The notes under the pieces were generated by a model. It saw nothing but the letters and a program-made list of their open reading frames with translations, searched no databases and was not told the origin of the DNA. Of a stretch of 64,000 nucleotides of DNA, positions 24,017 through 28,579 are shown piece after piece. This DNA is from Nitrospira sp. (GTDB lineage: Bacteria > Nitrospirota > Thermodesulfovibrionia > Thermodesulfovibrionales > Dissulfurispiraceae): the NCBI GenBank assembly GCA_002634385.1, contig NSJL01000011.1, positions 62,001 to 126,000 on the forward strand. Reading direction: 5' to 3'. The position numbers and the translations under genes were made by a program. Positions within the stretch are counted from its first letter, which is position 1, and every line of letters begins with the position of its first letter.

Positions 24017-24252
24017 GAGGTGCATCAAAAAGTGACATCAAAAAGTGGTGGTATTGAAAAAAAGGAGGCATATCCTTATAATAGAGTCGTTGTGGATGTA
24101 AAAAGAAACAGGGGACGTACCCGGCATGTTCCACCGGCAGTGATTCCACCGGCATATCCGACTCTTCCACTCCATCCTGCAGTTCGTTCTTTTTACCTTC
24201 CCTATTGTAAGAAATGAGCATTCGCAGCGCTCTTTGATAGCCAGAAAAAGCA

Positions 24253-24345
24253 GCTTTTCCGAAAGGGTAAACCCTGGGTAACCAGGGGGCACAAAGCTAC
24301 GGGTCCTCGCCATGAAGCGAAGGACAGCCGGGTTGCCGAAGAAGC
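24253..24345 (+). promoter_or_regulatory. cyclic-di-GMP-I (GEMM) riboswitch aptamer
   Basis: The plus strand matches the GEMM-I consensus in order: P1 5' strand GCTTTTCCG (24253-24261), AAGGGTAAACC (24263 on), a hairpin CCTGGGTAACCAGG, GCACAAAGCTACGGG, a second hairpin TCCTCGC..GCGAAGGA, then ACAGCCGGGTTGCCGA and the P1 3' strand CGAAGAAGC (24337-24345). The base equivalent to Vc2 G20 is G, which favours c-di-GMP over cGAMP. An intrinsic terminator follows 30 bases later, and the next gene is the caspase-like protease. Whether the ligand raises or lowers expression cannot be told by eye. Confidence 0.9.
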
Positions 24346-24375
24346 AGGAAGACTCTTCCGTCCAGGATGATGTTG

Positions 24376-24409
24376 AAAGCCTGTTTCCCCAAGGAAACAG
24401 GCTTTTTTT
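24376..24409 (+). terminator. riboswitch expression-platform terminator
   Basis: A strong hairpin with a 13-base stem, AAAGCCTGTTTCC (24376-24388) against GGAAACAGGCTTT (24393-24405), has a 4-base CCAA loop and a run of seven T. It sits between the GEMM aptamer and the caspase-like gene, about 97 bases ahead of its start, so it is placed to make transcription of that gene ligand-dependent. A small GGAAG-ACT-CTTCC hairpin lies between aptamer and terminator. Confidence 0.85.
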
Positions 24410-24505
24410 GTCATCAAAGGCAGTCGCGGTTTCCAGACGCGCATGCCCGAAACGGCAGCCCGCCGCAGCGGGAAGCTCAACGGGCGGAAGGGAGGATTAA
24501 AAACA

Positions 24506-25531
24506 GTGAAACGTTTTAAGGCGGCACACAGCAGTTTCGTTCACCGTTCGTCAAACGAGGGGATGCCGGCCGCTCCTTTCCGGAGCGTCCGCAGGGCTTT
24601 TCTTTTACTGGCACTCCTTATCCATTCGTTATTCCTTTCACCTTCGGGCGTCCTCGCCCAGCATCCTGCAATCAATGCAGCCGCTCCTGAGACAGTCGGT
24701 AAGGAGATCAACGCCATCGCCGGGCTTTCCGACGGGAAGGTCTCTTCCGGATCACGCCTTTTTATCCTTGCGGTGGGTATCAATGAATACAAGAACCCGA
24801 AAATGAGACTGCGGTTCGGAAGGTCCGATGCAGAAGCCTTCGTCCAGACAGTGGAGCAGCACGGGAAGAAGATTTTTCACCAGATCGAAAAACTGACGAT
24901 CTACGATTCGCACGCCGTGCGAAGCACCATCGAGGACGCCTTCGGCAGGATCAGCAGCGAGGTAAGGCCTGAGGATGTCTTTGTTTTTTACTATGCGGGA
25001 CACGGGGTAATGAGCAGGGGAGACGCCGCAAAGAAAGCGGAGTTCTATATGGCACTTTCCGATGTCACCCGTTTGAGCGGGGACCACGGAATGCTCGAGG
25101 AAAAAGGGTTGTCCGCACGGCTTCTCAGAGAACTGAGCTCGAAGGTAAAAGCCCGGAAGCAGCTTTTGGTGCTGGATGCCTGCCATTCCGGCGGGGCGCT
25201 GGACAACTTCTCCCTTGGAGCAAGCACGGAGGGGAAGGCGGTTCATCAAATGACAAAGGGTCTCGATATCACCGTCCTGGCGGCGGCCGGCGCTTCCCAA
25301 TCGGCAACGGAATTCCGGCAGCTCGGCCATGGCGTATTCACCTTTGCCCTGATGAAAGGGCTGGCGGGCGAGGCCGACAGCGGACTCTCTTCCGACGGCA
25401 CCATTACCGTAAAAGAGCTGGTAGCCTATTTAAATACGAAAGTTCCCGAGATTACCCGGCAGTATAAGGGGGCGGCACAGAATCCCAACAGCTTTGCGCG
25501 GGGAGAGGACTTCCCCCTGAGTGCCCGGTAG
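24506..25531 (+). CDS. secreted caspase-like (C14, metacaspase-type) cysteine protease
   Basis: A 341-residue exported protease. The GTG start at 24506 follows GGGAGG; an ATG at 24563 is also in frame. Arg-Arg at 29-30 is followed by a hydrophobic segment (31-50) and a likely signal cleavage after LAQ. The p20-like caspase domain runs from FILAVGINEYKNP (about 86-98) with the catalytic His in YYAGHG (H166) and Cys in LDACHSGG (C226), then VLAAAGASQSATEF and GHGVFTFALMKGL. The C-terminus contains a DGTITVKELVAYLN segment. No extra repeat domain is visible. It probably acts in the periplasm or outside. Its expression should respond to c-di-GMP through the upstream riboswitch. Confidence 0.88.
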   Translation: MKRFKAAHSSFVHRSSNEGMPAAPFRSVRRAFLLLALLIHSLFLSPSGVLAQHPAINAAAPETVGKEINAIAGLSDGKVSSGSRLFILAVGINEYKNPKMRLRFGRSDAEAFVQTVEQHGKKIFHQIEKLTIYDSHAVRSTIEDAFGRISSEVRPEDVFVFYYAGHGVMSRGDAAKKAEFYMALSDVTRLSGDHGMLEEKGLSARLLRELSSKVKARKQLLVLDACHSGGALDNFSLGASTEGKAVHQMTKGLDITVLAAAGASQSATEFRQLGHGVFTFALMKGLAGEADSGLSSDGTITVKELVAYLNTKVPEITRQYKGAAQNPNSFARGEDFPLSAR

Positions 25532-26580: not shown

Positions 26581-26874
26581 TTATATTTTCTTTACGTCGA
26601 AAACGGTGAGCAGGTTCAGAACATCCAGCAGATTGAGCAGCCTCTCGTCCCCCACCAGCATCGACACCTTCACCTTGTCCCCGTAAATAAGCTTCAGGAA
26701 AAACCCGATGACGGAAGAGGTCATGGAGAGGGAGTCGGGAATCCTGATCACCAGGGAATTCCTCCCGCCGCTTACCAGTTCCTTCACGGTGTTCTTGATC
26801 TGCTGATAGTCTTCTATGCTTTTGATATGACCGGATATGGTCACTTCCGATGCCCCGCTGATTTCCACTTCCAT
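26581..26874 (-). CDS. STAS-domain protein (anti-sigma-factor antagonist type)
   Basis: A 97-residue protein with STAS-like architecture: alternating strands and helices, TISGHIKSIEDYQQIKNTVKEL, then the segment IPDSLSMTSSVIGFFLKLI where the phosphoaccepting Ser/Thr of SpoIIAA-type proteins lies, and KVKVSMLVGDERLLNLLDVL. It starts four bases after the stop of the receiver-SpoIIE-HATPase gene, so the two are probably co-transcribed as a partner-switching pair in which the phosphatase and kinase domains act on this protein. No sigma factor is nearby. Confidence 0.7.
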   Translation of the reverse strand: MEVEISGASEVTISGHIKSIEDYQQIKNTVKELVSGGRNSLVIRIPDSLSMTSSVIGFFLKLIYGDKVKVSMLVGDERLLNLLDVLNLLTVFDVKKI

Positions 26875-26878
26875 ATGG

Positions 26879-28579
26879 CTACTCCTTTACGATTTTCTTC
26901 AGCACCGTTACCTCATTGCCTTTTTTATTATAGAACAACTCATCGCTAAGGCACCGCGCGATCCGTATGCCCCGGCCGTTCAGACGATGGGAGTCAAAGT
27001 CCGTCTCCTGTAACAGGAGGGTATCAAAGCCCGGCCCCTCATCGGCAACGGAGAGGAGCAGCAGCTCCTCTCCGTCCTGTTCTGCCAGGGAAAGAGTAAT
27101 CGTTATTCTCTTGCTGGTTTCCCTCTCCGTTTTCAGGAGATAGCCTTCATAATTGCCCTCCCGTACCAGACTGTTCTTCAGGTCGAGGTCGATATTCAGA
27201 TTGCCATGCTCGTATGCGTTCATCAGCACCTCCGTAAGAGAATTGACAAAGGCGCCCTTTAAGTCCTCGCCTGCGTCCACCGTCGACAGAAGACCCTCCA
27301 CCGCGGCGGTGGCCTTTGTCAGCTCCTCGAGTCGTGACTCGGCAACAAAGACCTTTTTCCATATCAGGGTATAATCAAGTTTCCTTAAAAAGATGAAGGT
27401 GACATCGTCATCAGGTTTTTCAACTTTACGCGCAAACCGGGAAGAGAGGTCGTCTTTGAAGGGAGAGAGGGTGAAATCACTCTCCAGGCAGTCCTGATAG
27501 AGGGCATCCCTGCTCCTGAAGCTTTCGCTCAGTCCATCGGTATGTACGAGGATCTTGCGGAAAGTGGAGATGTCGTGCCGTTCGATGGCCGCTTCGTCCA
27601 GGAACCTGACCAGGGGCACATTATTGCTCTTTATGCGCACCACCCCGCCGTCCGCAGCCTGGCAGAGCACCGGGGGCATGGAGAAGAGAGCTGCCTCCAT
27701 CGTCTCGCTGACCAGGTCGAGATACAAAAAAGAGGCGCTGACGATCTCGTCTTCGAGGAGCTCCCGCTTGATAAATTTCGTGTACCCCCGGATGAACCTC
27801 CCGAACTCGAAATCTCCTGTCTCCTTCATTTCATTGATAAGATAGTTGGCAAAGGAGGTGGAGAGAATCGAAGTGACAGAGGCGGAAAGTCCCTTTCCCA
27901 TGGCATCGGCGAGAAAAAGAACTATCTTTCCCTCCCCTACCTCCCGGACGGAGTAGCTGTCACCGCTCAGGATGTCGAGGGGTTTGTAATAGATACTGAT
28001 GACCCACTCCCCCCTTCTCCCCGCCGTGTCCACCACGTCGATTTTCCTGAGAAACAGGTCATTCCGTATGATGTTCAGCTCCTTCTTGAAGGCCCGCTCC
28101 TGTTGTGCGAAATGGTACTTTTCACGATATTTTAAAAGCTCCAGTTCCTGTTCCTGGGACTTGCGGGCGAGATTTTCGATGAGGGCACGCTGAACGGCGA
28201 TCTCAATGGCACCGAGGAGGTTATTGAAGCTGATGGGTTTCGCGGCAAACTGGGTGACACCGAGGTTGATGGCTTTGATCAGGAATTCCGTATCCATATA
28301 CGCAGTAATAAGGATAATCGGTACCTTGATATCGGTTCTCCGTATCTCCTCGATAAGGTCCAGACCGTTCATCCGGGGCATCAGGTTGTCCGTCAGGACA
28401 ATATCCACCGCGTTCTGCCTGAACTTCTCCAGGCCCTCCCTTCCGTCTTCGGCCAGGATAACCCGCTTAAAGAGGGGAGTAAGCATCTTCTCCATGATCC
28501 TGCGGGTTATTTCTTCATCCTCCGCATACAGGACGGTCAGGTCCCGGGTAAGTTCGGCCAATTGTCTTGCCTGCGTCAT
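26879..28579 (-). CDS. receiver - SpoIIE phosphatase - HATPase (partner-switching regulator)
   Basis: A 566-residue soluble protein. Residues 13-130 are a response-regulator receiver with acidic pocket (AEDEE), phospho-Asp 64 (VLTDNLMPRMNG) and Lys in FAAKPIS. Residues 140-180 form a coiled coil. Residues 190-400 are a SpoIIE/PP2C phosphatase (GDSYSVREVGEGKIVLFLAD with metal Asp, DAMGKGLSA, ILVHTDGLSES, DDDVTFIF). Residues 420-566 are an RsbW-type HATPase (SLTEVLMNAYEHG, VADEGPGFD, GRGIRIAR). One protein could thus both phosphorylate and dephosphorylate a STAS partner under control of phosphotransfer. The adjacent STAS gene is the obvious partner. It is divergent from the chemotaxis operon. 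Confidence 0.88.
   Translation of the reverse strand: MTQARQLAELTRDLTVLYAEDEEITRRIMEKMLTPLFKRVILAEDGREGLEKFRQNAVDIVLTDNLMPRMNGLDLIEEIRRTDIKVPIILITAYMDTEFLIKAINLGVTQFAAKPISFNNLLGAIEIAVQRALIENLARKSQEQELELLKYREKYHFAQQERAFKKELNIIRNDLFLRKIDVVDTAGRRGEWVISIYYKPLDILSGDSYSVREVGEGKIVLFLADAMGKGLSASVTSILSTSFANYLINEMKETGDFEFGRFIRGYTKFIKRELLEDEIVSASFLYLDLVSETMEAALFSMPPVLCQAADGGVVRIKSNNVPLVRFLDEAAIERHDISTFRKILVHTDGLSESFRSRDALYQDCLESDFTLSPFKDDLSSRFARKVEKPDDDVTFIFLRKLDYTLIWKKVFVAESRLEELTKATAAVEGLLSTVDAGEDLKGAFVNSLTEVLMNAYEHGNLNIDLDLKNSLVREGNYEGYLLKTERETSKRITITLSLAEQDGEELLLLSVADEGPGFDTLLLQETDFDSHRLNGRGIRIARCLSDELFYNKKGNEVTVLKKIVKE

Follow-up and report, generated by a model that had tools for sequence, protein, structure and literature searches.

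A c-di-GMP-I riboswitch preceding a putatively exported caspase-like protease gene is predicted to act as an OFF switch

The ligand of the class I c-di-GMP aptamer Vc2 is contacted by G20, A47 and C92 (PMC4744006), and an A at position 20 goes with cGAMP (PMC6274999). Cd1 is an OFF switch in which terminator and aptamer coexist and an antiterminator competes with both (PMC9262584), and the functional class I c-di-GMP riboswitches of C. difficile have been reported as OFF (PMC11477304, PMC6366702). One of them precedes the gene of the secreted metalloprotease PPEP-1 (ZmpI), which sheds adhesins at low c-di-GMP (PMC11477304, PMC6366702). The functions of bacterial caspase homologues are largely obscure. 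No C14 protease was found among the reported c-di-GMP-I targets, and the combination of a metacaspase or caspase with a c-di-GMP riboswitch was not found in the open-access literature searched (subscription literature was outside the scope). Here we analyse such a combination in a window of 64,000 nucleotides, meaning the whole stretch of DNA under study, which spans positions 62001-126000 of contig 64 in a Nitrospirota genome of 4.3 Mb and 77 contigs. A transcription-terminating c-di-GMP-I riboswitch probably controls an exported caspase-like C14 protease in this locus and acts as an OFF switch. The new element is the predicted sign: OFF, with the protease made at low c-di-GMP. The conserved switch would thus offer an expression condition, low c-di-GMP, for a bacterial caspase homologue. 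The features are collected in Table 1; the coordinates given in an earlier note on this DNA are correct within a few bases.

Table 1. Features of the riboswitch-caspase locus (window coordinates) and related leaders of the same family
Feature	Position	Strand	Basis
sigma-70-type promoter TTGAAA-17-TATAAT, probable transcript start	24054..24082	+	11/12 consensus matches
conserved TTTGATAG/TTTGACAG box, candidate anti-aptamer strand	24233..24240	+	kept in six leaders
c-di-GMP-I (GEMM-I) riboswitch aptamer	24257..24341	+	Rfam covariance models; orthologous copies
GAAGCAGG, P1-extension 3′ strand, putative antiterminator strand	24341..24348	+	8-bp pairing with 24380-24387 before the terminator 3′ arm is made
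intrinsic terminator hairpin, 14 bp, then T run	24375..24406	+	hairpin and T run also present in every orthologue
putative Sec signal peptide, residues 1-51, cleavage after VLA	24506..24658	+	sequence and comparison with three orthologues
mature caspase-like (Peptidase_C14) protease, His166/Cys226	24659..25531	+	profile, alignment, structure model
GEMM-I leaders before other hydrolases, same family	L061:143-1438, L073:2108-3073, L059:2-1435, L065:298-927		

The aptamer is recognised by two related Rfam models at the same site. With cmscan, RF03167 (c-di-GMP-I-GGC) reaches 67 bits (gathering 59, E 1.2e-13) and RF01051 (c-di-GMP-I) is higher in bits, with 69.5 (gathering 35). The GEMM-I aptamer of the earlier note is borne out by these covariance models, and an Rfam scan of the entire window returns only two RNAs, this aptamer and a tRNA elsewhere. 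The pocket positions were assigned from the RF03167 alignment as the base 5′ of the G-C pair opening P2 (24266), the base 3′ of that pair (24293) and the base 3′ of P3 (24336). They are G, A and C, respectively, and the equivalents of G20, A47 and C92 in Vc2 numbering are intact. The G at position 20 argues against cGAMP as the ligand, and the choice of c-di-GMP over cGAMP, made earlier from this discriminating base, is supported by all three positions. The P2 loop is GUAA, of the GNRA type, and GCAA, GUGA and GUGA in three orthologues. P1 is short, and two bulged A residues make its helix imperfect. The RF03167 consensus has a G at the A47-equivalent position, where the window has A. From the name and the consensus we read this G as the defining trait of the GGC variant; no explanation of the variant's defining base was found in the literature searched. 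The high RF03167 score comes from the remainder of the model. The A at this position rules out the 'GGC' label as a sign of another ligand, so the pocket is canonical and the expected ligand is unchanged. By all features checked the aptamer belongs to the c-di-GMP-I class, and it would bind c-di-GMP. The second messenger is probably made in the host, since 48 GGDEF matches in its genome exceed the Pfam cut-off.

Only one strong sigma-70-type promoter is present in the intergenic region, 174 nt upstream of the aptamer. Its TATAAT is kept in all four orthologous leaders and its TTGAAA in three, with TTGCAA in the remaining one; the distance from the promoter to the CCGAAA of the aptamer is ~196-207 nt across the four. 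No promoter-like site that could bypass the switch was found on the + strand between the terminator and the start codon at 24506, nor after the terminator in the four orthologous leaders. The transcribed leader ahead of the aptamer (24083-24256, ~170 nt) keeps its length and not its sequence in four genomes, and RNAalifold gives 0 conserved pairs for it. A conserved leader peptide was rejected as well: a 41-codon frame from 24094, open in the window, continues in a same-genus relative and is without counterpart in the other two leaders. All four caspase leaders contain the TTTGATAG/TTTGACAG box, and two leaders of ABC exporters have it as TTTGACAG or CGTGACAG. It is complementary to the 3′ end of the aptamer with one mismatch and may be an anti-aptamer strand; the duplex energies for that role are not convincing in the informative leaders, those other than the window's own. 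The box is not a -35 element, as the -10 slot 16-18 nt further on is TTCCGA within the aptamer. The terminator reported earlier was confirmed as a 14-bp stem at 24375-24406 followed by a T run.

Conservation was followed through 231 genomes of the class. At the orthologue threshold of at least 60% identity there are exactly four orthologues of the protease, in three genera of one family (31 genomes), and the next best match has ~37% identity. A GEMM-I aptamer stands directly 5′ of the caspase gene in all four, and promoter, aptamer and terminator keep the same order and spacing. The loss of the leader in relatives, named earlier as an outcome that would speak against the switch, did not occur. 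Pairwise identity is 77-87% in the aptamer and 82-91% in the P1 3′/antiterminator strand, against 35-67% in the pre-aptamer leader and 27-69% in the linker, the flanking leader dropping to 27-45% in most pairs; the contrast with the diverged flanks implies selection. A survey of homologous caspases for the same leader, as proposed in the earlier note, gave it for the four orthologues and for no other locus covered: caspases of 30-46% identity elsewhere are without such an aptamer at the loci scanned, no aptamer was found in five scanned Bacteroidota caspase loci (homologues of 41-44% identity), and none of the matches listed for the 231 class genomes is another riboswitch-caspase pair. The gene order TldD, LpxC, helix-turn-helix protein, Sua5 and riboswitch-caspase is complete in the window and in genome G158. 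TldD and LpxC lie near the caspase gene in all four orthologues, and asparaginase comes next in the window and in genome G081. Elsewhere in the window, at 26581-28579, a fusion of response regulator, SpoIIE phosphatase and HATPase adjoins a small protein without Pfam match, possibly its antagonist partner.

The protease starts at a GTG codon (24506) preceded by a GGGAGG Shine-Dalgarno sequence and matches Peptidase_C14 (Pfam PF00656, E 3.3e-14). Numbered from this GTG, the dyad is His166 and Cys226, the exact residues that had been named before, and it is invariant in 30 of 30 homologues. An AlphaFold2 model (pLDDT 86, pTM 0.84) has the caspase/metacaspase fold, with a Foldseek probability of 1.00 to 3bij, 9n3e and 7qp0; the best PDB matches are GSU0716 of Geobacter (3bij) and Arabidopsis metacaspase 9, and identity to solved structures is ~18%. 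Proteolytic activity would be expected. The N-terminus of the window protein has a hydrophobic segment ending in VLA|Q, and the N-termini of all four orthologues run from basic residues through a hydrophobic core to an A-x-A-like site (VLA|Q, AFA|R, TFA|Q, VLA|Q). By visual reading, in agreement with the export proposed earlier, they are putative Sec signals. In the G081 orthologue WD40 repeats lie between the signal and the caspase domain. The GKEINAIAG of the window protein matches the end of the last WD40 blade there (GREIDAIAG), and the window form thus resembles a shortened WD40-caspase. The EACC1-associated caspase family (NCBIfam NF047832) is matched below its curated cut-off (86 vs 140 bits). 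The nearest named homologue, with 79% identity over the full protein, is from the metagenome-assembled 'Nitrospirales bacterium SJ299', which places the host in the Nitrospirota.

The predicted sign, on which the earlier note was silent, comes from the anatomy of the leader. The terminator hairpin and the aptamer do not overlap, so bound aptamer and terminator can coexist, and P1 and the antiterminator use one strand. Because GAAGCAGG can pair with CCUGUUUC, a P1 stabilised by ligand should favour termination. The P1 3′ strand is GAAGCAGG in the window, GAAACAG, GAAGCAG and GAGCAG in the orthologues, and GAGACAG and GAACAGG in the two ABC-exporter leaders; the terminator 5′ arm is CCUGUUUC (24380-24387 in the window) or CCUGCUUC. 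Pairing between the two is possible in all six leaders, over 4-8 bp. These six leaders (four caspase, two ABC-exporter) were folded as the transcript that exists before the 3′ arm of the terminator. Five of them give ~6-8 expected antiterminator pairs; in the exception, the G161 leader, the antiterminator is weak and not formed in the model. When aptamer and P1 are forced, the expected pairs drop to 0.55, 0.07 and 0.53 in three leaders. With P1 forced, 4.5 of 7.2 remain in the window's own leader and 4.7 in the ABC-exporter leader of G081, where forced P1 flips the full-length RNA from antiterminator to terminator. Compared with shuffles the antiterminator duplex is modest in single leaders (p 0.015 to 0.12) and reaches 4e-4 combined, the leaders being related. 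At equilibrium the terminator is present in both states of the full-length window RNA, and any switching would therefore need to take place during transcription. Forcing the aptamer costs 5-16 kcal/mol in a model that ignores tertiary contacts and the ligand. The OFF-switch layout, as read from the sequence, is strong in five of six leaders and weak in G161; this evidence is real but not decisive.

Taking the parts, their order, their conservation and the mutually exclusive pairings as they stand in the sequence, we infer ligand binding, sign, export and proteolytic activity along the following lines. The transcript would begin near 24090. In the absence of ligand, GAAGCAGG (24341-24348) would pair with CCUGUUUC of the terminator 5′ arm; with this antiterminator formed, RNA polymerase would read through and the protease would be made and exported by Sec. 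Binding of c-di-GMP would stabilise P1 (UUUUCCG/CGAAGAA...) and keep the GAAGCAGG strand in the aptamer. With that strand held there, the terminator would form and no protease would be made.

The same riboswitch and ligand could also work in the opposite sense, with c-di-GMP blocking termination and the protease produced when cells are sessile and c-di-GMP is high. A relative with the same aptamer fold, the cGAMP riboswitch pilM, is ON, an ON layout occurs within the family (in G156:C95a the P1 3′ strand also serves as the terminator 5′ arm), and the free window RNA, modelled at equilibrium, has the terminator. An ON switch is nevertheless rather unlikely here, as the hairpin stays clear of the aptamer and the P1-shared strand competes with the terminator and not vice versa. 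Less likely still is an aptamer for another cyclic dinucleotide, either cGAMP, whose riboswitches are closely related to the c-di-GMP-I class, or an unknown ligand of the Rfam 'GGC' class, whose model is the best clan member by E-value; G at 20, A at 47, C at 92 and the bit scores of the two models (69.5 for RF01051 vs 67) speak against it. Imperfect P1 pairing and the weak antiterminator in one relative would fit a real aptamer whose control of the caspase gene has been lost by decay or bypass. We give little credence to this, since all elements are retained in four genomes despite diverged flanks, and two of the four have closely similar leaders 5′ of ABC exporters.

Bacterial caspase homologues are known in defence and death systems, and a PADLOC 'caspase' profile matches part of the length of the protein. 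A programmed-death or anti-phage effector whose riboswitch couples cell death to c-di-GMP is still very improbable, because the N-termini of all four orthologues are of export type, the gene forms a single-gene unit without defence partner at the locus, and its conserved neighbours are housekeeping genes (TldD, LpxC, Sua5, asparaginase). A defence island was ruled out, with no defence partners nearby, and the self-lysis role suggested in the earlier note finds no support. Under the preferred reading, the OFF switch, the protease would act beyond the cytoplasm, and the conserved switch suggests that it serves to remodel the surface or to aid dispersal rather than to kill the cell. By analogy with PPEP-1, the most likely role, tentatively put forward, would be to trim proteins of the surface or envelope as c-di-GMP declines.

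Several further GEMM-I-like matches are found in the window's genome. An MsbA-like ABC exporter follows a riboswitch leader with aptamer, TTTGACAG-like box and terminator both in the window's genome (L014:3263-3347, G000:C34) and in G081 (L063:1501-1587, G081:C1); a perfect 22-nt palindrome, GGGTGTGTTTGCAAACACACCC, lies just 5′ of the former. In the window's genome a GEMM-I aptamer also stands directly 5′ of multihaem c-type cytochrome genes (L016:3728-3830, G000:C60). Its P1 5′ strand CAAUCCUCC is fully complementary to the Shine-Dalgarno sequence GGAGGAUUG, so a translational ON switch is predicted for the cytochromes, opposite to the caspase. Across the family, GEMM-I leaders precede an S8 subtilase, a C10 peptidase (second frame downstream), a GH18 protein and Fn3/Ig surface proteins, and an SLT transglycosylase frame lies 573 nt 3′ of another. 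Two tandem GEMM-I aptamers occur in L076 and L062 (G156:C95:3807-4070), the first followed by a terminator in ON layout. The family targets would fit a c-di-GMP surface-remodelling regulon. A regulon of opposite signs may be envisaged, as a tentative idea that we hold to be possible rather than probable: a fall of c-di-GMP would release the exported caspase homologue (and the ABC exporter) and turn the multihaem cytochromes off, and the caspase would be a surface-remodelling protease of lifestyle change, not a death or defence effector.

In comparison with known systems, both the riboswitch class and the protease family are known, and their combination is unusual. The aptamer resembles the RF01051/RF03167 class in its scores above gathering, its G20/A47/C92 pocket, its GNRA P2 loop and the intrinsic terminator that follows; nothing categorical separates it, and its peculiarity is a short P1 from which two A residues bulge. 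As in Cd1 (PMC9262584, PMC6366702), aptamer and terminator are compatible and the P1 3′ strand doubles as the antiterminator strand; Cd1 differs in its target, flagellar genes, and the sign in the window is predicted. The protein shares with bacterial metacaspase and orthocaspase homologues (PMC3501461), with 3bij and with metacaspase 9 the caspase fold, the His/Cys dyad and WD40-linked relatives, and differs by its low identity to the solved structures. The nearest functional precedent is PPEP-1/ZmpI, a secreted protease with a class I c-di-GMP riboswitch and expression at low c-di-GMP, as predicted for the window's protease. The earlier note set its exported protease against GEMM targets that are mostly motility, matrix, pilus and cytochrome genes; PPEP-1 is a precedent for an exported protease under a c-di-GMP riboswitch. 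As a Pro-Pro zinc metalloprotease PPEP-1 has adhesins as its known substrates, whereas the window protein is a putative cysteine protease of the caspase fold. The latter would represent a second, unrelated protease family under a c-di-GMP riboswitch, and its control would therefore follow a logic convergent with that of C. difficile PPEP-1.
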